Positions 31,712 through 46,208 of a stretch of DNA of 64,000 nt are shown piece by piece. A model generated the notes under the pieces. That model was not told the DNA's origin. It was given only the letters and a program-made list of their open reading frames with translations, and did not search any database. Numbering within the stretch: position 1 is the first letter of the stretch; every line of letters begins with the position of its first letter. The position numbers were made by a program, and so were the translations under genes. The DNA is taken from assembly GCA_002898295.1 (NCBI GenBank), contig BEHX01000002.1, positions 62,001-126,000 on the forward strand, written 5' to 3'. The DNA is from a bacterium HR21 (GTDB taxonomy: Bacteria; Bacteroidota; Ignavibacteria; Kapaibacteriales; HRBIN21).

Positions 31712-32431
31712 TTACGGCTTCCACCAGAGGAAGCGTCGCCACCGCCCCTGGTGCTGCTCAACCCCAATATACAGCCCTGAGGCGATCTCGGGAATTCCTC
31801 CAGCCGGTGGGAAGTGGTTCCCATACCAGCACAGTCGTCCTAAGAGGTCATAGAGCCACACAGCCCGTTCACCCACGGCACCAAGTCCGGGCTCCTTGTG
31901 CGCGTCCCAAACTGTCACCGGAAAGCGATACCAGACTCGCAGCGCGAACTCCTCCAGAAATTCGTTCGTGACGGTACCTTCTTGCGCCCCATCGAACCGA
32001 ATCCGGACAAGGCTCCCCGTCACTCGGTCGGAGAGGACCGCGGAGTCTATTGCCTCAGGCAGCGGGTAGCTCCAGCGGAGCACTATGTTCCGTCCGCTCC
32101 CGCGCTGCACCAGCAGCCGGTACTCTATGGAAAACGTGTCTGTCTGCCGCAGCGGGCGGAAGTCTCGATACGTCCACTTCCACTCCCCGTCAGCACTATC
32201 GTAGAAGCGGAGTACTGCATGGAAGACATCTCGTGGCGGATGCATCGGTGGCAACTCTTGCTCACCCAGCAGCGTGTCTATGCGCTCTGTTGCCCGCTCG
32301 TCTACCCCGACGACGAGCGTCAGCGCTTCGCCCAGCTCATTCCCAACCCGAAAGGGAAGCTCTACATGAGACTGGGCATAACACAGAGTGCTGAGAAGCC
32401 CACCGACGAGACCCCAGAGACACGCTTTCAT
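31712..32431 (-). CDS. Secreted protein with ELPPxPP module and T9SS-like C-terminus
   Basis: A 239-residue protein with a signal peptide (about 1-20, ending LCYAQ). Residues 47-76 carry the shared module signature (RIDTLLGEQELPPMHPP followed by a hydrophobic strand), also present in two larger neighbours. The last 60 residues (VWLYDLLGR, ASGLYIG) resemble the type A sorting domain of T9SS cargo, so secretion to the cell surface is inferred. The ATG at 32431 directly follows a small hairpin that contains its ribosome-binding site (32433-32447). It is the last gene of the T9SS cluster. No enzymatic motif is seen. Confidence 0.7.
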   Translation of the reverse strand: MKACLWGLVGGLLSTLCYAQSHVELPFRVGNELGEALTLVVGVDERATERIDTLLGEQELPPMHPPRDVFHAVLRFYDSADGEWKWTYRDFRPLRQTDTFSIEYRLLVQRGSGRNIVLRWSYPLPEAIDSAVLSDRVTGSLVRIRFDGAQEGTVTNEFLEEFALRVWYRFPVTVWDAHKEPGLGAVGERAVWLYDLLGRLCWYGNHFPPAGGIPEIASGLYIGVEQHQGRWRRFLWWKP

Positions 32432-32432
32432 C

Positions 32433-32447
32433 GTTTTCCCCGAAAAC
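32433..32447 (-). promoter_or_regulatory. Small hairpin masking a ribosome-binding site
   Basis: GTTTTC and GAAAAC pair around a three-base loop immediately before the ATG at 32431. The purine-rich GGGGA that could serve as Shine-Dalgarno lies in the loop and stem, so translation of the 239-residue protein may be restrained. Confidence 0.35.
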
Positions 32448-32451
32448 ACAA

Positions 32452-32483
32452 CTGGGTGGATGCCCCTTGGAGCACCCACCCAG
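32452..32483 (-). terminator. Intrinsic terminator-like hairpin after the 1026-residue protein gene
   Basis: CTGGGTGG (32452-32459) and CCACCCAG (32476-32483) form an 8-bp perfect stem with a 16-base loop. On the minus strand it lies 18 bases after the stop at 32502 and is followed by TTGTGTTTT. It would end or attenuate transcription before the last gene of the cluster. Confidence 0.6.
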
Positions 32484-32501
32484 CCTCCACTTGTCCGGTT
32501 C

Positions 32502-35500
32502 TCAGCGGACCACAACGAGCGGCAGCACGCGGTTGTCCAGCCCAATACTTGCCCGAATGAGGTATTGCCCGCTCGCGAGCGTCTCCAGCGATAGCGGCAG
32601 TGTGTGAATCCCTGCCGGGAGTTCACCCGAGTACAGGGTCATGAGCTCTTCACCGACAATGCTGGAGAGCGTAAGGCGCACAGGAGCTGCGCTCGGCAGC
32701 GTCACCGTCAGCAGTGCCCGATCTGCCGCCGGCTGCGGCGCGATGCTGAGCTGAATGCCTGCTGCAGCGCTGCTCCGCTGCAACAGCTGGACAGCTGTCA
32801 CGCCCGGGTCCGTAATGCGCACTTCTGTGCCGTTCCGGAGCACTCCCCAGCTCCGCCCGGCAGCATCAATGACGGTGTACTCCGCTGCTGCGGACCTCTC
32901 TAGGCGCAGAGTAACGGGATGCTGCACACCTTGGAAGCGAACGATGGGTGAAGCACCATCCTCAACGTACGTTCCGCTCGCAAAGCGCACATCGAACAGC
33001 TCGGCCGGTGGCACCGGCGGCAATTCGAAGCGCTCCCGGTCAATGGGCAGCGAGCTCAAATAGAGCGTTGCCTCCTTCCCCTCTGCATCCCGCACAGAGA
33101 CAGGCACGCTGGTGTTCAGCACTCGCTCCCGCTCCTCATCCCGGACAATCCCCGTCCGCGGAGTTCCAGGAGCTTCCAGCTTCAGGTACCCCTTCCCCCG
33201 AATCTTGATCCAGTAGCCCAAGCCGGGGGTAAGCTCAGAGACTTCCACGAAGCCCCGATCAGTCCTGTAGCCATAGACCCCGCTGACCCGCTGTGGGAGC
33301 GGCTCAGCACCGTAGTTCTCAAACTGGATCCGCTCAATGCTGACCGGTACCGACAGCCCACCGATGGTATTCCACCCATCGTAGAGCAGCACGTTATCAT
33401 TCCGGTCAATCCGCAGGAGCCGCACCCCAGCAATCTGTCGGTCAACCGAGTCGCTATACTTGACATAGTATCCATAGCCGACGCTCAGGTTCTCCGAAGG
33501 CTGGTATTGGTTCTGGGAAAACCAGAACGGAATGTTGATTGCCCGCGGGTAGACCATGCGCCAGTGATTGTTTGCCGGGCGCACGGGCAGCGACAGCAGA
33601 TTCCAGCCCTTCTGGATGACCGGGTACTGCACCACGAGTGGGTAGGTGTACTCGATCACGAAGGAGCGGATACGAGCATCGGTGATGGTGTAAGACATCC
33701 GCGTCCCACCCGCGGGGGTTGCCTGCCGCATATCTACCCCGAAGATTGTCCCGTTGAGGGTATCCCGCAGGAAGAGGCGAGCACCTGCCGGGAAGTCCGT
33801 TGTATCCCACGTCAACGTCACGGGGTAGTTCTGTGCTCCCCCTGCATCGAAGCGACAGAGGAAGACCACGGTAGAGTCGGAGAAAACGTTCCGGATGTCT
33901 CGCGAGGCGTAGATCCCCACTAAATCCCGCAGCCCGTTGGGAGCTGTTCCTGGTGGCACATTCGCAACCCCATCCAGGTACCACCGAGCGAAGAAGCTTC
34001 CCGCAACCGGCGGGGCATCGTAGATAGTTTCCCCGAAGAGCGTATCAATCCCGTCTGTTGCCCGAATCCCCAACCCGAAGAGCAGCGTTGTAGACTGCGG
34101 TGTTGCGGCAGAGTTCGTCACCGTAATACGGATTCCCCGACCGAGTGCCTGGAGGTTCCGCGGGTCGTTGTTCGGCTCCACGGGGTTACGCACGTAGATA
34201 AAGGTCACCCGCAGCCGCACGGGAGAGACAGAAGCTGAGAGTGTCCGGAAGGTGATGTAGCCCACGTAGATGCCCGCCGCGTCTGTCTCCTGCGGTAACT
34301 CCTGCGGGTCGCATAGGATGCGGAAGTTCTGGGGACGGGAGGGGGACTGTGGATTGTTCTGAATGTCTTGCAGGATAGTTTCTCCCAGCGTGCGATCAAT
34401 GTAATCAATCACACCAGAACGGGTGATAGCTGGAATGGGATTGCGGTCACCTGGAGCAGCGGCGAAGGTTTGGAACTTGAGCCATCGGGCATTGGACTCC
34501 ACCACAACGTTTGTCAGCCGGGTTCCTTCAACCTCGTTGGTAACGACTAACTCTCGCCGTCCGTAGAAAACACCCCGAGTCCAGGAGGCCGAATCGAGCA
34601 CAATCGGGTGGATGACCTCCCACTCATCTCCGCTCGGCGAGACCTGGCGTACAACAGCATCCACTCCGATCCGTGGCTCAAAGCCAATTTGCGGCAGGTC
34701 GGTGATAAAGACATAGATCATCCCCGGCATGCTCGGGTAGAGATTCGCGATGGGCAGGAGTCCACGATTATCAACGCCTTCCAGCCCTTCGTACGAGACA
34801 TTTCCCGTTGCCCCACCCGTTCGGTAGGTCACAAAGTCGCGATACCGGGATCCTGAGGGATTGCCCGGGAAGGGTTCTGCTGGGAAGACGCTGAGGTTGA
34901 GGTCGTTATACTTCAGCGTGTCATTGGAGAGGATGAGCCGTGCGATCGTCCCGACAACACCTGTTACTCGGAACCGCAGGTAAATGACCGGGACATACTG
35001 CCGCTGGTCGCACTGAATTGTGGGGTCCCACGGGTCTTGTCCAGGTCCTGCCGGGCTGGGCGGGAGTGGCTTTGCCGAGCTAGCAACAATCCGGACTCGC
35101 CGCGGATCGTAGGCCGTGGGGACACTTCCCAGGTTATGCCAATCAACTAGTGCCTGCAGCATATGAGACGCTGTGATCGGCACGTCATCGAACGCAAAGG
35201 TGAAGTCCTTTGCCAACACGCTATCACCGTTCGGACTCACCTTCTGCACTCCCAGGAACTCCAGGAAGCGCCCATCATACTTGAGCTTGAACTCAAAGCT
35301 GTAGATTGGCCACACCTTCCCCCACACGGGATGGTTCGATGGGACCCAGCAGTTCCGGATGTAGACCGGGACCAGCAGCTCTCGAGGCTGCTGCGGGCTT
35401 GCCTGCTGAGGGACCACAATGAAGCCTGCTGGGTATGTCCGGGAATCGTATCCAGGACCGCTCCCTGTCAGGCTCAGCACAGGGAGCTTTACATCGTATG

Positions 35501-35582
35501 CCTGCCCGTAGGCAGCACCACCACCCAGAAGCACAATCGCCAGTGTTGCAATCACATTCCACAGAGACAACCACCGTCGCAT
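32502..35582 (-). CDS. Large secreted protein with cohesin-like region, ELPPxPP modules and T9SS sorting domain
   Basis: A 1026-residue protein with a signal peptide (about 1-27, ending AAYGQ). The N-terminal part (about 25-220; PVYIRN, IYSFEFKLKYDGRFLEFLGV) resembles a cohesin-like beta-sandwich. Two copies of the shared module follow: a diverged one coded near 33960-34140 (ATDGIDTLFGE) and a clear one near 32940-33115 (RERFELPPVPPAELFDVRF). The end is a typical T9SS type A domain (APQPAADRALLTVTLP, then ASGQYLIRASI, ending VVVR). A surface-attached, non-enzymatic binding or structural role is inferred. A near-match promoter (TGAATTTG) lies about 20 bases upstream. Confidence 0.8.
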   Translation of the reverse strand: MRRWLSLWNVIATLAIVLLGGGAAYGQAYDVKLPVLSLTGSGPGYDSRTYPAGFIVVPQQASPQQPRELLVPVYIRNCWVPSNHPVWGKVWPIYSFEFKLKYDGRFLEFLGVQKVSPNGDSVLAKDFTFAFDDVPITASHMLQALVDWHNLGSVPTAYDPRRVRIVASSAKPLPPSPAGPGQDPWDPTIQCDQRQYVPVIYLRFRVTGVVGTIARLILSNDTLKYNDLNLSVFPAEPFPGNPSGSRYRDFVTYRTGGATGNVSYEGLEGVDNRGLLPIANLYPSMPGMIYVFITDLPQIGFEPRIGVDAVVRQVSPSGDEWEVIHPIVLDSASWTRGVFYGRRELVVTNEVEGTRLTNVVVESNARWLKFQTFAAAPGDRNPIPAITRSGVIDYIDRTLGETILQDIQNNPQSPSRPQNFRILCDPQELPQETDAAGIYVGYITFRTLSASVSPVRLRVTFIYVRNPVEPNNDPRNLQALGRGIRITVTNSAATPQSTTLLFGLGIRATDGIDTLFGETIYDAPPVAGSFFARWYLDGVANVPPGTAPNGLRDLVGIYASRDIRNVFSDSTVVFLCRFDAGGAQNYPVTLTWDTTDFPAGARLFLRDTLNGTIFGVDMRQATPAGGTRMSYTITDARIRSFVIEYTYPLVVQYPVIQKGWNLLSLPVRPANNHWRMVYPRAINIPFWFSQNQYQPSENLSVGYGYYVKYSDSVDRQIAGVRLLRIDRNDNVLLYDGWNTIGGLSVPVSIERIQFENYGAEPLPQRVSGVYGYRTDRGFVEVSELTPGLGYWIKIRGKGYLKLEAPGTPRTGIVRDEERERVLNTSVPVSVRDAEGKEATLYLSSLPIDRERFELPPVPPAELFDVRFASGTYVEDGASPIVRFQGVQHPVTLRLERSAAAEYTVIDAAGRSWGVLRNGTEVRITDPGVTAVQLLQRSSAAAGIQLSIAPQPAADRALLTVTLPSAAPVRLTLSSIVGEELMTLYSGELPAGIHTLPLSLETLASGQYLIRASIGLDNRVLPLVVVR

Positions 35583-35618
35583 TGCCCTCTTCCCTCGTAG
35601 AGCAAATTCAACAGACCT

Positions 35619-36740
35619 TCATTGCACACAGAAGACCACGGGGAAGCTCTCCCCGAATCGGTGCCGTCGTCCAACGTAAACCCCTGGGGAGAGGCTCTGC
35701 AGCGGGACGCAGCGCCGTCCTTCCAGCGCTGTCCCCCGCCATTGTTCTCTCCCCAGAAGATCGTAAAGTTCCAATGCTTCGCCAGGCTCCAGGCAGAGAT
35801 GCCCGCTCATGCGGAGCACGGTGCGCCCACCCCACTCTGCCACTGATACGCCGCTCGTATTGAAGATGCGGACACTATCCCCTTCCCAGCGGGTCACACA
35901 GCTACACGAATCGTGGGGTTCTGTCAGGAATGAGAGGACGGCTGTATCCGTTTTTCTCTGCTGTACCTCAAACCTTATGGCAAGCTGTGCCTGCCCTTGA
36001 GGGCTCCACGATACCGTCGCTGCCTGGCCCTGCTGTTCCCAGCTCTGTAGCGTTCCACTTGTTACAGAGACATCACTGATGGACAGCCACTCAGGTATCC
36101 CGCCGATCACCGTCCGCGCTGCCGCCAGGCGCAGCGTTGTATCGTACTCAACCGCCAGTGGGAGTACAACACTGGTGTTTCCCTCCCGGATCTCCCACTC
36201 CCGCACCACTGCCCGAGTTCGGAGGAGACGTCCAGGTACGTCCACAGCGCGAGCAACGACGGGCAATGGCAGAGTATCAACCAGCACCGTCCGCTGGCGC
36301 TCAAACTCCTCGTTGAACTCCACGTAGAGAAGCTGCACTCCTGCTGTATCCGGACACTGCTGGCGATATTCGCCCACGAACGCCACCAACGGCTGTGCCC
36401 CGGAGATCGTTCGGGTTAGCGTAAAGGCGTAGGCACGCAGCTCGCCCGCCTGAGCTCCAAAGCCGCGCTGGTCCATGCCTTCTGCCAGCGTTCCACTGGT
36501 CAGCATTGCATGGAAGATCAGCTTCTCCGGGTTGAACCGTATGGCAAGATTGAACCCCATCAAGCTATCACGTGCCTGAACAGGACTGAGAGTGACAACC
36601 AGCACACACTCGCGCCGCCCACAGACATCCACCGTATCGAGAACCTGCAAGGAGACCCGGGCAGTATCGCCGGCAGCCAGCGCTACCGTCGTAGCTGCTC
36701 CCAGACCGAGGAACCATATATGCTGCCATCGCAGCCACAC
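35619..36740 (-). CDS. Secreted cohesin-like protein with T9SS-like C-terminus
   Basis: A 373-residue protein with a signal peptide (about 1-22). Residues of about 25-150 have the beta-sandwich pattern of cohesins (SLMGFNLAIRFNPEKLIF). Cys-rich strands in the middle part (CSCVTRW, HLCLEPGE) may form disulfides. The final 70 residues (ALELYDLLGREQWRG, SLSPGVYVG) look like a T9SS sorting domain. It lies between two other T9SS-type genes, with gaps of 36 and 24 bases, and is probably part of the same transcript. Ligand unknown. Confidence 0.72.
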   Translation of the reverse strand: MWLRWQHIWFLGLGAATTVALAAGDTARVSLQVLDTVDVCGRRECVLVVTLSPVQARDSLMGFNLAIRFNPEKLIFHAMLTSGTLAEGMDQRGFGAQAGELRAYAFTLTRTISGAQPLVAFVGEYRQQCPDTAGVQLLYVEFNEEFERQRTVLVDTLPLPVVARAVDVPGRLLRTRAVVREWEIREGNTSVVLPLAVEYDTTLRLAAARTVIGGIPEWLSISDVSVTSGTLQSWEQQGQAATVSWSPQGQAQLAIRFEVQQRKTDTAVLSFLTEPHDSCSCVTRWEGDSVRIFNTSGVSVAEWGGRTVLRMSGHLCLEPGEALELYDLLGREQWRGTALEGRRCVPLQSLSPGVYVGRRHRFGESFPVVFCVQ

Positions 36741-36764
36741 GCCTGTCTCCTGCAGAGCACCTCA

Positions 36765-38639
36765 TCACCGTATCCACACAAACGGCTGGCTTACCCGCTC
36801 ACCTGCGCCTTCTACCTGCAGTATGTACGTCCCAGTACCAACCTGCTTCCCAGCATCACCCAAGCCATCCCACTGGAAGTGATAGAGCCCTTTCTGGTAC
36901 TCACCTTCGGCGATGACGCGCACGCGCTTGCCCATGAGATCGTAGAGAGCAACCCGATAGTATCCCGCCTGAGGCAGCACCACCTCGATCGTTGCTGGCA
37001 TGCTGGAAGGATTCGGGGTGATCACAACCTGCAGCCCAGAGGCGTCCGACACCGCCAACGGGCGAGCCAAGTCCGGCATCTCCATGTCATTGAAGCGAAT
37101 CCGCCGCATCTGTACAGTGGATTCCTGTGTCTGAAGTGTCACCCACGCAAGTGGCTGCCCAGGCTCGCAGTCAACCACGCCAGCGACAGCGATCCGCCCA
37201 CCATCGTATGCCACCACGAGCTTCTCTGCAAATTCCGGGGCAACTTCCACGGACCGGATCGCGCCGTTGAATTCCGCTCGGAATCCAAGAGCGCCCCGCC
37301 ACATCCCGTTGAGCATAAGCGGAATGCGGTACGTGTTCGGAGCAATCCGAGACACTTCCGGGAGCACAACATTAGTTGCAATCTCTGCAGCCGCCGCTCC
37401 ACGCCCGTACGGTGGGAGCACAGTCAGATCCAACAGCCACGGCAAATAGGGAACTCGAGCCGCCATATAGAGCATGATGATTGCCGCGTCGTATTCCGTT
37501 GCTTCAAAGAAGAGGACCGGATCACCTCCAACGTAGGGCAGGGAGTTGTCCGACGGAAGGTCTTGCCAGTAGTAGAGCGAGCGCGTGGGAATTGCACGAC
37601 GATGGTACGTCGAATCAGCACTGTTGTCCAACGTACGGGTAGAGTAGTAGTAGCGTCCGTTGTGGTTGACGTCACCGTGGTATGCTTGCCGTCCTTTCAA
37701 ACTATCCAGGCGCCGATCCGTAGCCACAGAGCGGAGGATGAGCATCACATCGTTGACCGTCACAAACCGGTCCTGTCCCATCCCGGTATGTTTCCCCGCT
37801 TGGGAGAAATCCACATCGCCGTCACCCCACCCCTCTAGGAAGAGCCGCGGAATAGCGTTGAAGCGGATAACCGTATCGCTCCCGCCCGAGGGCTGCCACG
37901 TCGTGCTCAACTGGGTCGAGGTCCGTGCCTGATTCACATCGCCGGTGAAGACCAGACCATTGAGGTAATCGCCAAACCCTCCCTTGATTCCAATCGCCGC
38001 CCCCTGAACTTGAACAGGACCACCAGAACCAGTCAAACCGTAGGCAAACTCAATATCCCCCTGGAAGTTCCCCGGACGTGCGGACTCATAGAGCCAGAGC
38101 TGGAAGCTGGCAACGCTAGAGGGAAGCGACTTGTCGTTGATGTTGAGATTCTTCCACTCCACCACGAACGCTCGGTTTGGCGCCGAGCCGACCACTTTAT
38201 AGGAAATCTGCGAGGGGGTGTAGCCGGGCTCGGTCGTCCGGTAGTAATGATCACCCCAGAAAGGAGCGATCACGTTGAAGGGCTCGGTATTCACGAACAA
38301 GCGTCCCGGGATGCTGCCTCCTGTCAGTGGGGGATTCTCTCCTGCGCGGAGCAAGAGGACAAAGCCATTGACCGAGATTGCCAACCGGCTGTATCGGTAC
38401 CCCTGGTACTCAAAGAGAAACGGCAGCACGACGATAGCGTAGCCATTGTCGTGATCGGGATTATTCGTCGCTGGATCGAGGAACTGGTCTGCATCGAGCA
38501 CAGTTGCTCCGCTCAGCAAGGCAAAGGGCTTGCCTCCAATCTTGACGGCAGGCTGGAACTCAGCGTAAACTTGCGCCTGCACGAATGACCAGCTCCCTAC
38601 CAAGAGAACCAGGCTGCTGATCAGCGTCCGCATCGCCAT
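36765..38639 (-). CDS. Secreted protein with dockerin-like and cohesin-like regions and T9SS sorting domain
   Basis: A 624-residue protein with a signal peptide (MAMRTLISSLVLLVGSWSF...). The N-terminal half is a beta-rich domain (RLAISVNGFVLL, NVIAPFWGDHYY). The centre has two dockerin-like calcium segments: GQDRFVTVNDVMLILRS, and GDVNHNGRYYYS leading to EATEYDAAIIMLYMA. A cohesin-like sandwich follows, then a T9SS type A domain (ITPNPSSMPATIEVVLP, YDLMGKRVRVI, ending VWIR). Four ATGs cluster at 38645-38633 behind AGGAG; 38639 has the best spacing. A hairpin at 38699-38726 separates it from the giant gene upstream. Confidence 0.78.
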   Translation of the reverse strand: MAMRTLISSLVLLVGSWSFVQAQVYAEFQPAVKIGGKPFALLSGATVLDADQFLDPATNNPDHDNGYAIVVLPFLFEYQGYRYSRLAISVNGFVLLLRAGENPPLTGGSIPGRLFVNTEPFNVIAPFWGDHYYRTTEPGYTPSQISYKVVGSAPNRAFVVEWKNLNINDKSLPSSVASFQLWLYESARPGNFQGDIEFAYGLTGSGGPVQVQGAAIGIKGGFGDYLNGLVFTGDVNQARTSTQLSTTWQPSGGSDTVIRFNAIPRLFLEGWGDGDVDFSQAGKHTGMGQDRFVTVNDVMLILRSVATDRRLDSLKGRQAYHGDVNHNGRYYYSTRTLDNSADSTYHRRAIPTRSLYYWQDLPSDNSLPYVGGDPVLFFEATEYDAAIIMLYMAARVPYLPWLLDLTVLPPYGRGAAAAEIATNVVLPEVSRIAPNTYRIPLMLNGMWRGALGFRAEFNGAIRSVEVAPEFAEKLVVAYDGGRIAVAGVVDCEPGQPLAWVTLQTQESTVQMRRIRFNDMEMPDLARPLAVSDASGLQVVITPNPSSMPATIEVVLPQAGYYRVALYDLMGKRVRVIAEGEYQKGLYHFQWDGLGDAGKQVGTGTYILQVEGAGERVSQPFVWIR

Positions 38640-38698
38640 CATCATTTCTCCTCTTTCCTGAGTTGGACCTCTGTCATCCGGACTACTCACGGGATTCA

Positions 38699-38726
38699 GG
38701 GGCTCCCCTGGCAGCAGGAGAGCCCC
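38699..38726 (-). terminator. Strong hairpin between the giant beta-helix gene and the next gene
   Basis: GGGGCTC-C-CCTG and CAGG-A-GAGCCCC pair with a GCAG loop, 15 bases after the giant gene stop. No T-run follows on the minus strand, so it may stabilise the upstream mRNA or attenuate read-through rather than terminate fully. Confidence 0.45.
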
Positions 38727-38741
38727 CTTTCCCTATCGTCT

Positions 38742-41700
38742 TTACCGCACGAGCACCATCGGTTGGACCACCGTTGTCCCGCCGACAGTGATCCGGTAGT
38801 AGTAGACCCCGCTCGGGAGCTCTACCCCGTCGGTGCTAGTCCCATTCCACGGGACGGTGTATTCATTAGCCGGGTAGAAGCCCTCGAGGAGGGTTGCAAC
38901 CTTCTTGCCCAGAGCGTCGTAGACCTCCAGGCGCACCGTCGCCGGCTCGGTCAAGCGGAAGCGGATATTTGTGCTCGCCCCGAACGGATTCGGGGTATTC
39001 CCGAACAGCTGTACCGGACCGGCGGAAGCCACGGGAGGCTCGGAGACATTGCTAATCCAGTCGTACACGATGATGAAGTTGGTAACGGCATCCGTGTAGA
39101 TGACTACCGAGAGCGAATCGCCATTGCGCTCCAGGGTTACCGCCGGGATGGAATGCCCTTCGCCAGTGCGCATATTGAAGCTGAAGATATTGCCGTTGGA
39201 GGCACCGTCACGGATGTACCAGGTGGAGCCTGCCGGATTCCGCTGGGCATCGGTCCGGTCCGGTACATCCTGCGAGTTCCAGGTAATGCGCACCGGATAC
39301 GCTTCCGACGCATTCCCTGTCACGCTCCCTGCCTGGAAGCGCCCCTTGTAGATGCTCATACCTTCCACGCCCTGTACTGCCCGCGGGAAGATGTTGCGGA
39401 CAGTCCCGTTCGTCGAGGCGACAGTCCACCGAGCGTCGAAGACGTCGTTCGGTGGGATCGGCGGCAGCTCGTACTCGCAGTAGTTGGAGTCAAGCTTGCC
39501 GATGCCGCCACGGTTGGGATCATCGCCCGTTGTGGCAAACGGAGCCGTTCCCCACTCGAGCACTTGGAAGGCGCCGAAGCGGTTCGTAATCCGCATCGGG
39601 ACAACGAAGTCTGTCGGGTCAGAGACATTGAGCTTGTAGGTCACCTCGTGCTGCGCACCTTGCCGATCTGTGACCCGGACGCGGACGGTGATCTTCCCGT
39701 CAGGTCCTGGTGTCGCATTCAGAGCCGGCGTGCTGATGACAACCCGTACGGTATCCGAAGACTGCGGTCCACTGATAGTTGCCGGGACAACTTGCATTCC
39801 CGCCGGCTCGATGACCTCTACACTGAGCTGTTCAAGCGCATCGGGTGGCTCTTGCCGCAAGAGGTCCCGATCAATGACCGCAATGGTATCGATGTACGGC
39901 TTCCCTAGCTCGACACACTTGACCGCTGGAAGCTGTGCCAAGCGTGGCGGATGGTTCACTGCCCGGACGTTGAGGTCAATGACCTTGACATGCGTCAGCC
40001 CAAACTCGTCGGTGACCAGTACAGTGACCTTCTCTTGGCGTGGGGCGTCGTACACGCCCGGTGTGCCGTAGAGCAACCCGCTGACCGGGTCAATCTTGAG
40101 CCACCGCGGAGTTGTCTTCTTGTCTCGCAGGTCCCACGCACCGGCTTCGGGGAAGCACGGATCACGCGGGACGAAGTCTCGCGGGTCGCCCGGATAGATC
40201 AGCTCAAACTGGTGGGCTTGCCCGAAGTTCGGGTCATAGACCACAATCCGGCGGCTGGAGTCAAGCAAGGTCGGGTTATAATCCTGGTCCTCGATAGCGT
40301 CGGGCAGTGTACTGGTGACGATAACGGGCGCTACGTTGACCAGTACTCGCCGCGTCAGGTAGTTGACCCCACCGTGTCCATCATTGACCACGATGGACAC
40401 CACCGTATCGGTGTTGAGGGCACCATGGTGCTGGCTCGGCGGGGTCAGCAGTTGCCAGGCGGTAGCGGAATCAATCCGCACGTTGAGCTGCCCACGGAGG
40501 CTGAAGTCAATGGCAAGCGGGTCGGGTTGTCCGCTATTGTCGTAGCGACGCAGGTACTGATTGCGCATCCACACCGGGCGCACCTGCGTAGCCGGCTCGA
40601 TCACCGTATCCGGCGGGACCTCACGGAGATTGATCGAGGCAAAGCCGTACGTCGTCCGCCCATAGCGGAAGTCCCATCCCCGAGCACCTGCTTCAGCGTC
40701 TTCGAGCTCATCATCCGTATTGACATCCACCTTGAAGCGGAGGCTATCGGTGAGGTTCGCCAACCAGAGACCGCCCCGTTCACAGGCGACATCGAAGCCC
40801 GTAAACTGCGGCGTGCTATCGATGACGAAGATGCGGAACTGGTACGTCACCGTAGTCGCCGCAAGATTGTCATAGCCAACCGTGTCCTGCTGGAGGAAGC
40901 GGGCATTGCTTCCATCGTATGCCTGGGCATTGAAGTACGGCGGGTAGAGGTAGATGTACTTCGCTATCACGCTATCGCTCAAACCTGCCGCCTTGAGAGA
41001 ATCCACCGTTCGAGCTCCCGGTGGGTAGTTGCGCACGGCAACTGTGACGACCTCACCACCGGGCACGACGAACGGATTGGTCGGACGCCCTTTCAACACG
41101 ATGTATCCACGGGCACCGTAGTATGGTCCATACGTTGCCGGCAAGGTATCGGCTTGCAACCAGTAGGACAGTCCCGAGCCCGGTGGTACGCTCCAGAAGT
41201 ACGCCAGCTGTGGATACCGGTCAGGGAACAGGACCGAGCGCGGGTCATAGAAGAGATTGGAGTCGATCGCCGTGATCGTGAAGATGGAATCCCGCCCCGG
41301 TCCTGTCGGAGGACGCGGATAGCTAATGTCCTCCATCAGGAAGATCATGTTCCGCAGCTCAGGTGGTGTGATGTTCTCCAACTCGACCTTGTTCCCGGTG
41401 AACACCGGCGGATCCACAGTAGCCCCGACCTCGAAGATGAGCGCACCGTTGATTGCGTCGGCAACCGTTCCCTGCCAGAGCACCGTTCGGGAGACAACAG
41501 CAATGACGTCCCCCACACGCACCGGGAGCGCTGAGTACCGCTCACCGGCAAAGACAGTGACCTTCTGCGGATTGATTGCACCGTCAGCGGGGAAGACTCG
41601 ATTCATGTATCCGAACCCTGGTCCACCGAGCTCGCTGACGAAGCCCTCGTATTTCCGTCCTTGTAGAGCCGCTAGGTCTTCCACATCCGGTGCCCGGCGG

Positions 41701-44700
41701 AGTGCAGCGAGGATTGCTCCGAGATTCGTACCGATATTAGCCAACCCCTCAATTGTCCGCCGGTCCTGCGGACGACGGTTGACAGAATCGGGGACCAGCT
41801 CCACACGTGCCCGGAAGATTTCGCTCGTCGGGCTGGTCTGCCGGAGATTGACCCGAATATAGTCGCCCGTGCTCGTGTTGATCACGAAGAAGACCGTCTC
41901 GTTGATTGCCCGCGGGTCGTTGTTATTGAGCTCGGCCGTTCCGGTGTAGTCCGCCTGAGCCTCCAGGAAGAGCGGGTATCCAATTGGATGCTTGGGGCTT
42001 CGAATCTCGGTTTGCAAGGCAGCAACATTCGGATCTCTCGCCGCCTCGAAAGGATCCCGTGCCCAGCGCCGCACGTACTTCCGATACGAAGGCAGGGTCG
42101 GATCTGTGTAGGTCCGGAGCGTCTTTGGAATCCCGACGGCAAAGTCTTCAATAGGCGCCATGCGCCGCTCAGAGTAGTCTGCCGTCTTGATGTCGGTCCC
42201 TTTGTCGAAGATGTCATAGATGAGCCCCTGCATGAGCAGCCGTTCCGGAATGCTGCTCGGGTCTGGGGTATTCTCGTCACCCGCGTTCAAGACCGGAATC
42301 GGGGTGTAGGTATAGAGGTGACGGGACTCAAACGGACCCTGATTCTTCCCCGTCCCACCGCGGACAAAGCCCAGCTGCCGAGTCCCATCACCGGCGATGA
42401 AGAAGGTTTCTTGAACCCGACCACTGACCGGGAGGATAGTTACCACGTTCGCCTCAGTCCGCCCCCAGTAGTTCCCCCGCAGCGTGTCAACGCCACCCAT
42501 TCCAACTCCGGTCCCTGCACGACCGCCCTTCGTATCGGGATAATCCGGCAGACGGATGAGGAAGCGGGCGCTGTTGTCGTAGATGGAATTTGCCGCCCAG
42601 TGGTATGCCGCATATGGGAGCGGTCCGACAACATCGCCGTAGAGAATTGCCCCTGCCAGGTCGCTCGATGCTATGTTCGTTCCCTGCACGAGCGGACCAG
42701 TGATCGCATTCTGTTGCGCTCCGACGTCGGAGGTTGCCACGTTGTTCGTAATGAGGCTACGGGTGAAGACTAGCTGCAGGTTATAGTTGTCCGAGTACAC
42801 CGCCGCTCCTGTATAGGCCCGGTTGCCCTGAATGCGGACCCGATTGAAGAAGATGGAGTCGGTTCGTCCCGCCCGGTCGAGGCTGACTTCATCGAGGATG
42901 AAGAGTGCCCCACCGAGCCCTGTTCCGTTTTCCCGCAGCGTCGTGCCCGGATGTGTCCGCCGGATATCCCCGATTTGTGTCGTCCCCGAGCCCATCTGCG
43001 CCATATTCGGGATAGCCTCGTTATCGAGGAAGCGGGTCAGCATCCGGACATCAGGTACTGGTGCTGCCGGGTCCCACGTAAAGATGTCGTCCCGCGAGCT
43101 GAAGGCTGTCGCAACCCCCGAGGGCAGGACCGTGATATTGTCAACATCGGTTAGGAAGAAGCGATGCGAGGAGGTCTGTGGGTGCACAATGCAGACCGCT
43201 CCACCGTTACCGTTGTATGCTTTGTTAGCACGGAACTCGGTGCCCTTGACTACATTCAGGTCGGCGTTGAGCGTGTAGACAGCTCCACCCCCACGCACCT
43301 GGGCTTCATAGCCCGATTGGACTTGCCCGACAATGTTGTTGGTAAACGTTGCCCGGACAAGCCGGATATACCGTCGTTCAATTGGCAACCCTCCCGGCAG
43401 GTGGACTGCAATTGCACCACCGGAGAACCCTGCCGTGTTGTTGTCGAATTCCACCGGGTAATTCCCCCCGTAGAGCGAGAGCGGTCCAACTGTCCCGCCG
43501 GCACCATACACGGTGAAGTTCTTCCCTGAAAAGATTGCCCCACCGTGGTCAACTGCACGGTTATTGCGGAATTTGATGTTGTACCCGTAGTTACGCGTGT
43601 CTATGAGCGCATCCGAGCCTCCGATAACTGGCGATGGGCGTGTATCAATGCTACCGGCAGCCACGTAAATAGCGCCGCCTCGCCCCGACTGATTGCCAAC
43701 AAAGTATGTCTCCTGCCGTGCTTCCCCGCCCTGGCGACCACGGACCTGGAGCCGCCCTGCATCGGCGCTGACGTAGATTGCACCGCCCTGCGAGAGTGCT
43801 CCAACCTGGTTGGGATCGGAGAAGAACGGCACGCTGGTCTGGTTCGAAATAAAGCGCCCACGAACAGTCACCGAGGTCCCTCCACCGACGTAGAGAGCCC
43901 CGCCGCGAGCTCCTCCCGTATTCGGGTTGTTCTGCAGGTTCGAGGCACTGTTGCCGTCGAAGAAAGCATAGTCGTACACATTCGGCGCCTGATAGTCGTT
44001 CATGCCCAGCCCAACTTCCAGCTGGGTGCGCCCGGCAATGTAGACCGCCCCACCGTAGGCTTGATTCTTCCACGCCTGCGGTTCCAGCGGTGCCGGATTG
44101 TTCACATCATCCACAATCGCCCATACACCCGGAGCAATCTGTTGGAGGGAAACCGCGGAGAGCAGCACGCGATTCCCCGTAAAGGTCAAATACCGCACAC
44201 GTCCCAGCAGGAGTGCCAAGCGCCCATCATCGTAGGCTTGACGATCGGCATTCGAGAGAGGCTCAGGATTCGAGCTATAAACTTGGTCAATCGCCTTGAC
44301 TGCCTGGGAAATCGGCGTCGCCGTTGCCTGGTCTGTCAAGTAGGGGTTGATGGCACCGTAGTTCGGCAGCCCAGAAATGTCCGGCGTTGGATACACACCT
44401 GTTCCCACCGGTGCCTGCAAGAACTGCACAGCCCCACCCCGGTAGCGAGCCATGTTGTTGCGGAATTCGCACAGGAGAAGCCATGTCCGGGAGGAGAACG
44501 TCGTGATGACGCCACCGCTCCCATTTGTCTGCTGGAGGAGCTGTGCATTCAGGGCTGCAACAGCACCCGTATTGGGCTGGTAGATTGGGAAGCGGTCAAC
44601 GGTGGTATCCTTCCGGAAGTTCTCGAAGACGACGTTGCGGAAGAACGCAGCCCGTGCCCCAGGCAGGACGATGATGTGTCCCCACTCCCGCGAGAAATTG

Positions 44701-45320
44701 TTGACTGGGCGCCCCCGGAAGACAATTTGCCCCTGGGTGACATTGACACTGCCGCCGCCGACACGCCGCCACGCCGTCTGGTTGATGTTCGGATCGCTTC
44801 CGGCAAACTCTAACCGCGCTGCCTTATACATGATTGCCTTGCCCGGCGGCAGGTTCTGCAGCCGCGGGTCTGCCCCAAGGCTTACAAGGAAGATCTCACC
44901 ATACTTTGCAGGATCAATGGTCGGATCTCCAATGATACTGCTCTGCGCAGCATCCCGGAAGTAGTTTAGGTCAGCATACCCTGTGTAACCACACGGATTG
45001 AAAGGATCCACAGGGTTGCATCCACCCGGGTACTGAACGTACGTTGCCGAGACATAGCCATCGGCAATGATACGCCCCCCCACTGAGTCAATGATGCGTC
45101 CATTCGGCAGGAATTCCACCGTGGTACCAGGCTCAATGAGGAGTGTCCCGGCAACCATGAGCGTCCCGCTGATGCGGTAGAGCGTATCCTTGAGGAAGAT
45201 GCGCACTTCGTTCGGCGCAATGCGCCCACTGACTTCCTTGACCGGCAATTGGGCATAGCCAATTGCAACCGCTGCGAGCAGTCCCACAACGGTTCCATAC
45301 AGGCGCAACCACCGTTCCAT
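38742..45320 (-). CDS. Giant secreted beta-helix protein with Ig-like repeats and T9SS sorting domain
   Basis: A 2192-residue protein. After a signal peptide (MERWLRLYGTVVGLLAAVAI...) comes a long right-handed beta-helix region (about 50-1000) with about a dozen GGA-type turns (GGAVYIAG, GGALYVGG, GGAIYVSA, GGAIYVAA, GGAIFSG), as in polymorphic outer-membrane proteins. Beta-sandwich segments follow, including an He_PIG-like one (PRWLKIDPVSGLLYGTPG) and a NHPPRL-type Ig repeat. An ELPPxPP module (coded near 39400-39610) precedes a T9SS type A domain (TPNPFGASTNIRF, YDALGKKVATLL, ending VLVR). An adhesin or surface-layer role is inferred. The ATG at 45320 has GGAGGA upstream. Confidence 0.82.
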   Translation of the reverse strand: MERWLRLYGTVVGLLAAVAIGYAQLPVKEVSGRIAPNEVRIFLKDTLYRISGTLMVAGTLLIEPGTTVEFLPNGRIIDSVGGRIIADGYVSATYVQYPGGCNPVDPFNPCGYTGYADLNYFRDAAQSSIIGDPTIDPAKYGEIFLVSLGADPRLQNLPPGKAIMYKAARLEFAGSDPNINQTAWRRVGGGSVNVTQGQIVFRGRPVNNFSREWGHIIVLPGARAAFFRNVVFENFRKDTTVDRFPIYQPNTGAVAALNAQLLQQTNGSGGVITTFSSRTWLLLCEFRNNMARYRGGAVQFLQAPVGTGVYPTPDISGLPNYGAINPYLTDQATATPISQAVKAIDQVYSSNPEPLSNADRQAYDDGRLALLLGRVRYLTFTGNRVLLSAVSLQQIAPGVWAIVDDVNNPAPLEPQAWKNQAYGGAVYIAGRTQLEVGLGMNDYQAPNVYDYAFFDGNSASNLQNNPNTGGARGGALYVGGGTSVTVRGRFISNQTSVPFFSDPNQVGALSQGGAIYVSADAGRLQVRGRQGGEARQETYFVGNQSGRGGAIYVAAGSIDTRPSPVIGGSDALIDTRNYGYNIKFRNNRAVDHGGAIFSGKNFTVYGAGGTVGPLSLYGGNYPVEFDNNTAGFSGGAIAVHLPGGLPIERRYIRLVRATFTNNIVGQVQSGYEAQVRGGGAVYTLNADLNVVKGTEFRANKAYNGNGGAVCIVHPQTSSHRFFLTDVDNITVLPSGVATAFSSRDDIFTWDPAAPVPDVRMLTRFLDNEAIPNMAQMGSGTTQIGDIRRTHPGTTLRENGTGLGGALFILDEVSLDRAGRTDSIFFNRVRIQGNRAYTGAAVYSDNYNLQLVFTRSLITNNVATSDVGAQQNAITGPLVQGTNIASSDLAGAILYGDVVGPLPYAAYHWAANSIYDNSARFLIRLPDYPDTKGGRAGTGVGMGGVDTLRGNYWGRTEANVVTILPVSGRVQETFFIAGDGTRQLGFVRGGTGKNQGPFESRHLYTYTPIPVLNAGDENTPDPSSIPERLLMQGLIYDIFDKGTDIKTADYSERRMAPIEDFAVGIPKTLRTYTDPTLPSYRKYVRRWARDPFEAARDPNVAALQTEIRSPKHPIGYPLFLEAQADYTGTAELNNNDPRAINETVFFVINTSTGDYIRVNLRQTSPTSEIFRARVELVPDSVNRRPQDRRTIEGLANIGTNLGAILAALRRAPDVEDLAALQGRKYEGFVSELGGPGFGYMNRVFPADGAINPQKVTVFAGERYSALPVRVGDVIAVVSRTVLWQGTVADAINGALIFEVGATVDPPVFTGNKVELENITPPELRNMIFLMEDISYPRPPTGPGRDSIFTITAIDSNLFYDPRSVLFPDRYPQLAYFWSVPPGSGLSYWLQADTLPATYGPYYGARGYIVLKGRPTNPFVVPGGEVVTVAVRNYPPGARTVDSLKAAGLSDSVIAKYIYLYPPYFNAQAYDGSNARFLQQDTVGYDNLAATTVTYQFRIFVIDSTPQFTGFDVACERGGLWLANLTDSLRFKVDVNTDDELEDAEAGARGWDFRYGRTTYGFASINLREVPPDTVIEPATQVRPVWMRNQYLRRYDNSGQPDPLAIDFSLRGQLNVRIDSATAWQLLTPPSQHHGALNTDTVVSIVVNDGHGGVNYLTRRVLVNVAPVIVTSTLPDAIEDQDYNPTLLDSSRRIVVYDPNFGQAHQFELIYPGDPRDFVPRDPCFPEAGAWDLRDKKTTPRWLKIDPVSGLLYGTPGVYDAPRQEKVTVLVTDEFGLTHVKVIDLNVRAVNHPPRLAQLPAVKCVELGKPYIDTIAVIDRDLLRQEPPDALEQLSVEVIEPAGMQVVPATISGPQSSDTVRVVISTPALNATPGPDGKITVRVRVTDRQGAQHEVTYKLNVSDPTDFVVPMRITNRFGAFQVLEWGTAPFATTGDDPNRGGIGKLDSNYCEYELPPIPPNDVFDARWTVASTNGTVRNIFPRAVQGVEGMSIYKGRFQAGSVTGNASEAYPVRITWNSQDVPDRTDAQRNPAGSTWYIRDGASNGNIFSFNMRTGEGHSIPAVTLERNGDSLSVVIYTDAVTNFIIVYDWISNVSEPPVASAGPVQLFGNTPNPFGASTNIRFRLTEPATVRLEVYDALGKKVATLLEGFYPANEYTVPWNGTSTDGVELPSGVYYYRITVGGTTVVQPMVLVR

Positions 45321-45382
45321 GATTCCTCCACCTGCTAAAAACCACTTGTTCTGCAACGCCATGAGAAGCTTGGACTCCTGTA

Positions 45383-46117
45383 TTACTCAACTACTATGCC
45401 AAGGCGGGCAAGCCCCGCTTTCGCCTCATTCGCGAAGTCGGAGAACTCATTCTCCGTGAGAATCTGCCGGTAGAGCTGGGCGGCTTTCTGGGCATTGCCA
45501 GCCAGCTCGTAGCAATACGCAGCGAAGAAGCGGTACCGCTCTGCCATCCCGATAGGGGTTCCTACCAGAGCGGCACGCTCGTACAGCTGAGCCGCTTCTG
45601 CTAGTTTCCCTTCTTCCTCTCGGCAGGCGGCCAGTCCTGCATACGCTCCTACCTGAACAAGCGGAGCTTCGGACGCTGCTGCCAGCTTGAAATACGGTTC
45701 TGCCTTTGCGATCTGTCCGAGGAGGAGATACGCGCTGCCAGCATAAAACGCTGCAACCTTTCCGGATGGAGTTCCACCGTACTCTTCAACAATTGCCAGC
45801 AAGCCCCGAACTGGCTCCCCCCGGATGGTTTTCGTCGTGTCGCCGAAGAGCGCACGCTCGTAGTCGCCGTTATCGTAGTAGGTATACACCCGCGACAGCC
45901 ACAGCGCTGCTTCCTCAGCGCGCTTCTGCTGCGAGAGATGCCAATAGAGAAGCCCACCGGCAAGTACAAGCACTCCTGCTCCAATCCCGAGGAGCAGTCG
46001 TTGATGACGAAGAGCCCACTGTTGCACACGCTCTATCCCCTTGACAGGTGGAAGGGGAAACACCGACGGGGTTTCACGCTGCTCCTGCCCAACCAGCTGC
46101 TCAGTCTGCTTTTCCAT
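45383..46117 (-). CDS. Membrane-anchored TPR protein
   Basis: A 244-residue protein with a short cytoplasmic N-terminus, one membrane segment (about 45-65; LLLGIGAGVLVLAGGLLYW) and a region of tetratricopeptide-like helices (YDNGDYERALFGD, GQIAKAEPYFKLA, EGKLAEAAQLYERAA, GNAQKAAQLYRQIL). The topology resembles YfgM/BamD-like helpers that attend periplasmic cargo or envelope assembly. The gene lies 17 bases after tRNA-Arg and 62 bases before the giant T9SS protein, so a role in exporting that cargo is possible but unproven. Confidence 0.75.
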   Translation of the reverse strand: MEKQTEQLVGQEQRETPSVFPLPPVKGIERVQQWALRHQRLLLGIGAGVLVLAGGLLYWHLSQQKRAEEAALWLSRVYTYYDNGDYERALFGDTTKTIRGEPVRGLLAIVEEYGGTPSGKVAAFYAGSAYLLLGQIAKAEPYFKLAAASEAPLVQVGAYAGLAACREEEGKLAEAAQLYERAALVGTPIGMAERYRFFAAYCYELAGNAQKAAQLYRQILTENEFSDFANEAKAGLARLGIVVE

Positions 46118-46134
46118 TCCTCTCCCCACTGTTG

Positions 46135-46208
46135 TGCGCCCGGAGGGGCTCGAACCCCCAACCTTTGGAACCGGAATCCAACGCTCTATCCAGTTGAGCT
46201 ACGGGCGC
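46135..46208 (-). tRNA. tRNA-Arg (anticodon CCG)
   Basis: The minus strand folds as a full cloverleaf: acceptor GCGCCCG with CGGGCGC, D-arm GCTC...GAGC, anticodon stem TTGGA/TCCAA around the loop TTCCGGT (anticodon CCG, reading CGG), and T-arm with loop TTCGAGC. The discriminator is A; the CCA tail is not encoded. It has its own TAATTTTG element 21 bases upstream, and the TPR gene follows 17 bases downstream. Confidence 0.96.

Follow-up and report, generated by a model that had tools for sequence, protein, structure and literature searches.

We found that a segment shared by three neighboring secreted proteins of an uncultured Kapabacteria organism (bacterium HR21, genome size 1.83 Mb) is a real, unnamed domain family, hereafter called the module, which recurs beside T9SS sorting domains in relatives. 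The proteins are encoded in a window of 64,000 nucleotides (contig BEHX01000002.1, positions 62,001 to 126,000), i.e. the whole stretch of DNA that was analyzed, and coordinates are positions in this window unless another contig or locus is named. Many surface proteins of the phylum are exported by the T9SS, and in these most of what separates the passenger from the sorting domain has no name.

Four copies of one domain family

Four copies of the module were found in the three proteins, all on the minus strand and together holding every motif quoted in the original prediction. Copy A (31919-32368, residues 27-176 of a 244-aa reading frame; HMM E 1.4e-31) is N-terminal in its own protein, straight after the signal peptide, and has ELPPMHPP at 32234-32257 and DTLLGE at 32261-32278. 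Copy B (33633-34139, residues 482-650 of a 1026-aa protein; HMM E 8e-46) has DTLFGE, FFARWY and YPVTLTWD at 33804-34046, and copy C (32772-33110, residues 825-937 of the same protein; iterated profile E 1e-13) has ELPPVPP and FDVRF at 32982-33026. Copy D (39051-39611, residues 1918-2104 of a giant frame; HMM E 7e-41) has ELPPIPP, FDARW and YPVRITWN at 39276-39470. The module is one domain family, with a full form of about 140-190 residues and a compact form of about 112 residues. The original prediction had put the copies in the right places, but the full modules extend beyond the limits it gave. It had also described the copy around 33960-34140 as diverged, while this copy, B, is in fact complete and full-length with only the exact ELPP letters missing, and the reduced, shortened one is copy C. 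The location just before a T9SS sorting domain, proposed for the giant protein and for the second copy in the 1026-aa protein, was borne out, with gaps of about 16 residues for copy D and 8 residues for copy C; copy A does not adjoin a sorting domain.

Profiles built from the orthologous segments of 20 relatives were compared by hhalign, giving probabilities of 98.1% for A-B, 98.1% for A-D and 99.2% for B-D. As controls, 28 comparisons pairing a module with one of seven further segments from these proteins reached at most 5.9%, and two sorting domains matched each other at 99.8%. Leave-one-out HMMs, each built from two of these copies, retrieved the third in every case (E 1e-8 for A, 2e-19 for B and 7e-13 for D), and 457 reversed proteins gave zero HMM matches. 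Ortholog profiles were required for this, as a single-sequence MAFFT alignment of the four copies placed A and C poorly. Copies A, B and D are homologous, and their similarity is not due to chance. The pairwise identity of only 20-31% between copies might suggest a proline-rich loop motif that arose several times with no single domain behind it, an explanation which the 98-99% profile-profile probabilities, the leave-one-out recovery, the absence of reversed-protein matches and the collinear core strands of B and C (see below) make extremely improbable, such repeated origin being ruled out for A, B and D with some doubt left for C alone.

Copy C required a separate treatment. It matched D at 95.6% by hhalign, mostly through the ELPPxPP-FDxRF motif, and A and B at 55% and 32%. 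Its scores against A, B and D were 31.7, 27.9 and 55.1, as compared with about 12 (s.d. 1.4-2.4) for column-shuffled C, i.e. approximately 8, 11 and 18 s.d. above the shuffles. A plain leave-one-out HMM missed it (E 0.93), while the profile iterated through intermediates reached it. In an AlphaFold2 model of the whole 1026-aa protein, B and C show nine core strands each, collinear relative to the shared motifs, and in four proteins elsewhere (loci L146, L157, L160 and L173) it is a full module that scores best in the usual slot of the compact one. Because of the match to D, the shuffles, the iterated profile, the collinear strands and the full modules in the compact slot, copy C was counted as a member of the family, albeit with slightly less certainty than A, B and D. 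Since iteration makes the profiles of the two forms converge, the labels full and compact at other loci rest on the better score.

Fold and search for a known family

Structure prediction, which the original prediction had suggested together with a profile search, gave an all-beta sandwich for module B (AlphaFold2 mean pLDDT 87 and pTM 0.86 when modeled alone), in which the ELPP-equivalent stretch is an ordered loop before the FxARW strand (pLDDT block means 93-95). The module is predicted to be a beta-sandwich of about nine core strands, with an ordered loop, D..GE.ELPPxPP leading into the FDxRF strand, as its hallmark. This loop motif is the most conserved feature of the module, and the conserved residues are rich in Pro, Asp and Arg, not aromatic. 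Against solved structures, including the CBM, discoidin and ephrin-receptor-like beta-sandwich families, module B gave a best Foldseek E of 0.12 and a best VIA Z of 5.2 (rmsd 2.9 over 88 residues), scores which are below the level that separates families, and the absence of a close structure does not make the fold new.

Pfam had nothing on the modules of the window proteins at E<=1, and for 45 module members it returned chance-level matches only (three families, each hit by a single member, at E 0.14 or worse). Three distant occurrences, analyzed with their flanking domains as the cassette described below, gave no Pfam match at E<=0.5 and likewise none in NCBIfam, and neither NCBIfam nor the PDB sequences held a family matching the module. 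Membership in an already named family was consequently rejected on the Pfam, NCBIfam and PDB sequence searches, in agreement with the original prediction, whose author had not recognized a named domain. None of the publications searched prints these motifs for such proteins.

Two known domains of the same proteins deserve comparison. The T9SS type A sorting domain (TIGR04183, PF18962 Por_Secre_tail) is also all-beta, occupies the C-terminal end of the same proteins and is usually abutted by the module. The module is nevertheless a separate domain upstream of it, and hhalign gave at most 5.9% between module and CTD. Cohesin (PF00963) is likewise a beta-sandwich, and the 1026-aa protein has an N-terminal domain with this predicted fold (Z 11.5), but that is a separate domain as well, and no cohesin was among the best fold matches of module B.

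The gene cluster

The three module proteins belong to a cluster of five co-oriented minus-strand genes, which follow a TPR gene in the order giant, 625-aa, 373-aa, 1026-aa and small protein. The TPR gene (45383-46129, minus strand), so called from its TPR matches, heads the cluster and has the same position in 19 of the 20 loci read from the order, the 20th ending before it. A tRNA-Arg (ccg) gene at 46134-46208, also on the minus strand, is located between the TPR gene and an upstream E1-type dehydrogenase gene. The giant predicted exported protein (38742-45320, minus strand; ~2192 aa with the ATG at 45320 as start) consists of PMP-type repeats, an Ig-like domain, module D and a CTD, with Pfam matches to Chlam_PMP (6.7e-12) and He_PIG (1.9e-6) and a T9SS sorting domain at 38745-39005 on the minus strand (TIGR04183 34 bits, cut-off 23 bits; HMM E 1.4e-27).

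The second gene (36765-38642, minus strand) encodes a 625-aa secreted protein in a 641-aa frame, with a T9SS CTD, a weakly nidogen-like N-terminus and conserved Asp-rich, EF-hand-like loops; in this family, Por_Secre_tail was matched in 18 of 20 orthologues and a weak NIDO in two of 20. Residues ~270-400 of the 641-aa frame include the conserved stretches WGDGDxDxS...RFVTxND and GDVNHNGRYYY...EYDAALIM, and by eye the Asp-rich loops resemble dockerin EF-hand motifs with insertions. PF00404 gave no match on these loops, and a dockerin is therefore not claimed. The third product, a 373-aa secreted protein (35619-36740, minus strand), has an N-terminal half that is weakly cohesin-like (Cohesin in three of 21 orthologues, best E 8e-4) and a short CTD (Por_Secre_tail in 12 of 21).

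The 1026-aa protein gene (32502-35582, minus strand) encodes, in order, a cohesin-fold domain, module B, a domain here named GWN, module C and a T9SS sorting domain. For the first of these (34695-35489, minus strand; residues 32-296), comparison of the AlphaFold2 model with cohesins by VIA gave Z 11.5 to the ScaC cohesin (rmsd 2.7 over 134 residues) and Z 11-11.5 to the top cohesins (rmsd 2.5-2.8 over 129-134 residues). PF00963 was matched in one of 21 orthologues at E 0.06, with no match over the cut-off in the genome; as modeled, the N-terminal domain has the cohesin fold, with faint support from sequence. The sorting domain (32505-32753, minus strand; HMM E 1e-14) matches the mirolase CTD (VIA Z 11.0) and PorU (10.8) in structure, and Por_Secre_tail was found in 18 of 21 orthologues. 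The last gene (31712-32431, minus strand; likely start MKACLW...) encodes the small protein with module A, the orthologue of which immediately follows the 1026-aa gene in relatives; its short T9SS sorting domain was seen only in orthologues. No dockerin was matched in the cluster itself. Elsewhere in the genome, Dockerin_1 exceeded its cut-off at two sites (contig C4, 143336-143545, and contig C10, 10502-10630), and these two proteins are possible candidate partners of the cohesin-fold domain.

By eye, the probable signal-peptide end is followed by Gln in four of the five secreted proteins (YA/QSH, YG/QAY, QA/QVY and YA/QLP, the slash marking the cut), namely those starting at 32431, 35582, 38642 and 45320. 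This Gln resembles the pyroglutamate 'Q-rule', which one study gives as valid in Bacteroidetes and not in the whole FCB group (PMC5837995).

As for export, the genome includes T9SS core genes for SprA (SprA_N 145 bits, over the cut-off) and PorU (710 bits, cut-off 420 bits). Export of the module-bearing proteins by the T9SS is therefore plausible, judging from sequence. The module itself occurs in only three of the approximately 22 proteins of the genome with a sorting-domain match and is thus not needed for T9SS export in general.

The C-terminal cassette

Many proteins that otherwise differ have C-termini to which residues ~486-1010 of the 1026-aa protein align. Across 60 loci, this cassette has the order full module, GWN domain, compact module and T9SS sorting domain, with median gaps of 8 residues between module and GWN domain, 20 (15-34) between GWN domain and compact module and 8.5 (0-21) between compact module and sorting domain, in 50-58 cases each; the loci were picked for holding the module, and the counts thus describe architecture, not frequency. 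The cassette is found on proteins of 540 to 2700 aa whose upstream passenger parts differ. Outside the 20 order loci, a detectable sorting domain ends 60 of the 61 untruncated proteins with a module or cassette, and 51 of the 52 outside clusters. The GWN domain (33168-33620, minus strand; residues 655-805 of the 1026-aa protein; HMM E 4.5e-46) is built of two repeats, whose GWN and GYW signatures are invariant, with conserved Trp, Asn, Gly and Tyr columns seen also at loci L140-L176, and is itself an unnamed, highly conserved domain. A recurrent and well-delimited cassette with fixed order and spacing provides many 'hypothetical' cargoes with a name and a testable unit.

Module copies are not restricted to the C-terminal part. 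Copy A and many copies at other loci are N-terminal ('early'), and as many as ~700 residues may separate them from the sorting domain. Small module-first proteins are encoded directly after cassette proteins also outside the order, i.e. at L148, L151, L154, L168, L172, L174 and L176. Strict downstream pairing of a cassette gene and a module-first gene was considered and rejected, being repeated but no rule outside the cluster.

Distribution and conservation

A profile of copies A, B and D was searched against 395 genomes sampled from the phylum, scoring up to nine candidates per genome, so that larger per-genome counts are lower limits. In the organism's own genome a single protein query found only itself, whereas the profile found three. 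The module was present in 74 of the 395 genomes, 31 of which belong to the same order, 22 to the class but to different orders, and 21 to more distant groups. The profile search thus recovered the module next to T9SS sorting domains in relatives, as anticipated in the original prediction, but its occurrence in these 74 genomes, in many unrelated cargoes, contradicts the suggestion that it is specific to this lineage. By tblastn, two cassettes had no match in 72,556 plasmids, a collection that tests other phyla poorly.

Within the order, three module matches were found in 30 of the 31 module-bearing genomes, inside the cluster wherever loci were read, and in Kapabacteria the module is almost confined to this five-gene cluster. 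The gene order TPR, giant, ~640 aa, ~385 aa, ~1030 aa and ~260 aa was seen in the 20 order loci read, apart from L047, which has no ~640-aa reading frame, and L053, which ends before the TPR gene; the same order appears in other orders at three loci (L137, L138 and L139). The whole unit of TPR and five genes (31712-46129) is collinear across the order and normally occurs once per genome. By single-sequence search, module B is found in a similar-sized protein in 36 of 41 relatives, and the five without it all belong to one family, f7. The f7 genomes have no giant-protein body, with matches to sorting domains only, and the cluster is missing as a unit. The giant protein occurs in 36 of the 149 genomes of the class, as a single copy in relatives. 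The nearest named relatives are Kapabacteria MAGs, e.g. Candidatus Kapaibacterium SKYG35, with 92-94% identical module B. That the cluster is kept in almost an entire order of uncultured bacteria suggests a surface structure common to them, on which we found no published study.

Possible functions of the module

The most probable function, to which we assign slightly less than an even chance, is that of a folded platform, placed between the cargo's working part and the T9SS sorting domain, which would present the tag and afterwards serve as a stalk. A parallel is offered by the P. gingivalis gingipain RgpB, in which the domain before the CTD is an Ig-like beta-sandwich. Like the module, this domain directly precedes the CTD, and its contact with the CTD is required, as a point mutation breaking the contact blocks secretion (PMC11285876), so a domain before the CTD can matter for export. 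Unlike it, the module has about nine core strands, the ELPPxPP-FDxR loop and N-terminal copies, and no sequence relation between the two was detected. Platform function is favored by the constant order and spacing seen with many passengers and by the RgpB case. We infer that the module would aid export by packing, once folded, beside the sorting domain and holding the tag, when it meets the SprA translocon, at a constant distance from passengers of very different kinds (a cohesin fold, a PMP beta-helix and others). Following processing by PorU, or anchoring, the module would stay as a membrane-proximal stalk. A stalk or maturation module, as the original prediction had it, is possible. Three observations stand against the platform. 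Most T9SS cargoes in the genome have no module, the N-terminal copies lie far from the sorting domain and are left unexplained by a purely pre-CTD role, and the most conserved residues are those of the loop motif, a hint of binding and not of a passive spacer.

Its main and serious rival, ranked below it and in our view rather unlikely, takes up this last point. Here the modules of the three cluster proteins would bind each other or a shared partner via the ELPPxPP-FDxR loop, forming one surface complex together with the cohesin-fold domains. Such an assembly domain would fit the loop being the best conserved part, the three copies in 30 of 31 module-bearing genomes of the order within a co-oriented and collinear cluster, and the absence of the cluster as a unit in f7. 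Module-first proteins directly following cassette proteins outside the order, the predicted cohesin fold of the 1026-aa protein (Z 11.5) and the two Dockerin_1 proteins elsewhere in the genome also agree with it, but about half or more of the cassette genes have no module-first neighbor, and the cluster itself has no dockerin match. More doubtful still is the specific version in which the module is the assembly domain of a T9SS-exported surface machine of Kapabacteria and sister orders. This machine would be composed of the giant PMP-repeat protein, two cohesin-fold or cohesin-like proteins, the nidogen/EF-hand-like protein and the small module-only protein, joined by ELPPxPP modules and T9SS-anchored, and, if true, would be undescribed.

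Binding of an extracellular glycan by the loop and a face of the sandwich, as in a carbohydrate-binding module, is improbable. Small beta-sandwiches do resemble CBM and lectin folds, and CBMs were among the weak Foldseek and VIA rows, but these matches do not rise above noise (best Foldseek E 0.12, with CBMs at VIA Z ~3), Pfam gave no CBM family match, and aromatic residues are not what is conserved. Less probable again than glycan binding is an extended secretion or maturation signal, in which the module itself would be read by the T9SS attachment complex, e.g. setting PorU cleavage or anchoring; the fixed short spacing of compact module and sorting domain and the RgpB precedent (PMC11285876) speak for it, while most T9SS cargoes of the genome manage without a module and N-terminal copies exist.

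Individual records

Certain records of relatives carried additional features. At L044 (686-3613), GT2 and GT9 glycosyltransferase genes directly follow the cluster on the same strand, and genes of the same size are found in that place in other loci (L050, 16196-19192, and L055, 16650-19469); cargo or anchor might thus be glycosylated. The Kapabacteria gene was also found in records titled Bradyrhizobiaceae and Chloroherpeton thalassium (L108, JAGFIZ010000102.1; L122 and L130), which are probably mislabelled or contaminated MAGs. Lastly, the Kapabacteria genome KatS3mg039 (BPHJ01000001.1; L093 and L100) has two copies of the 1026-aa gene, situated about 50 kb apart.
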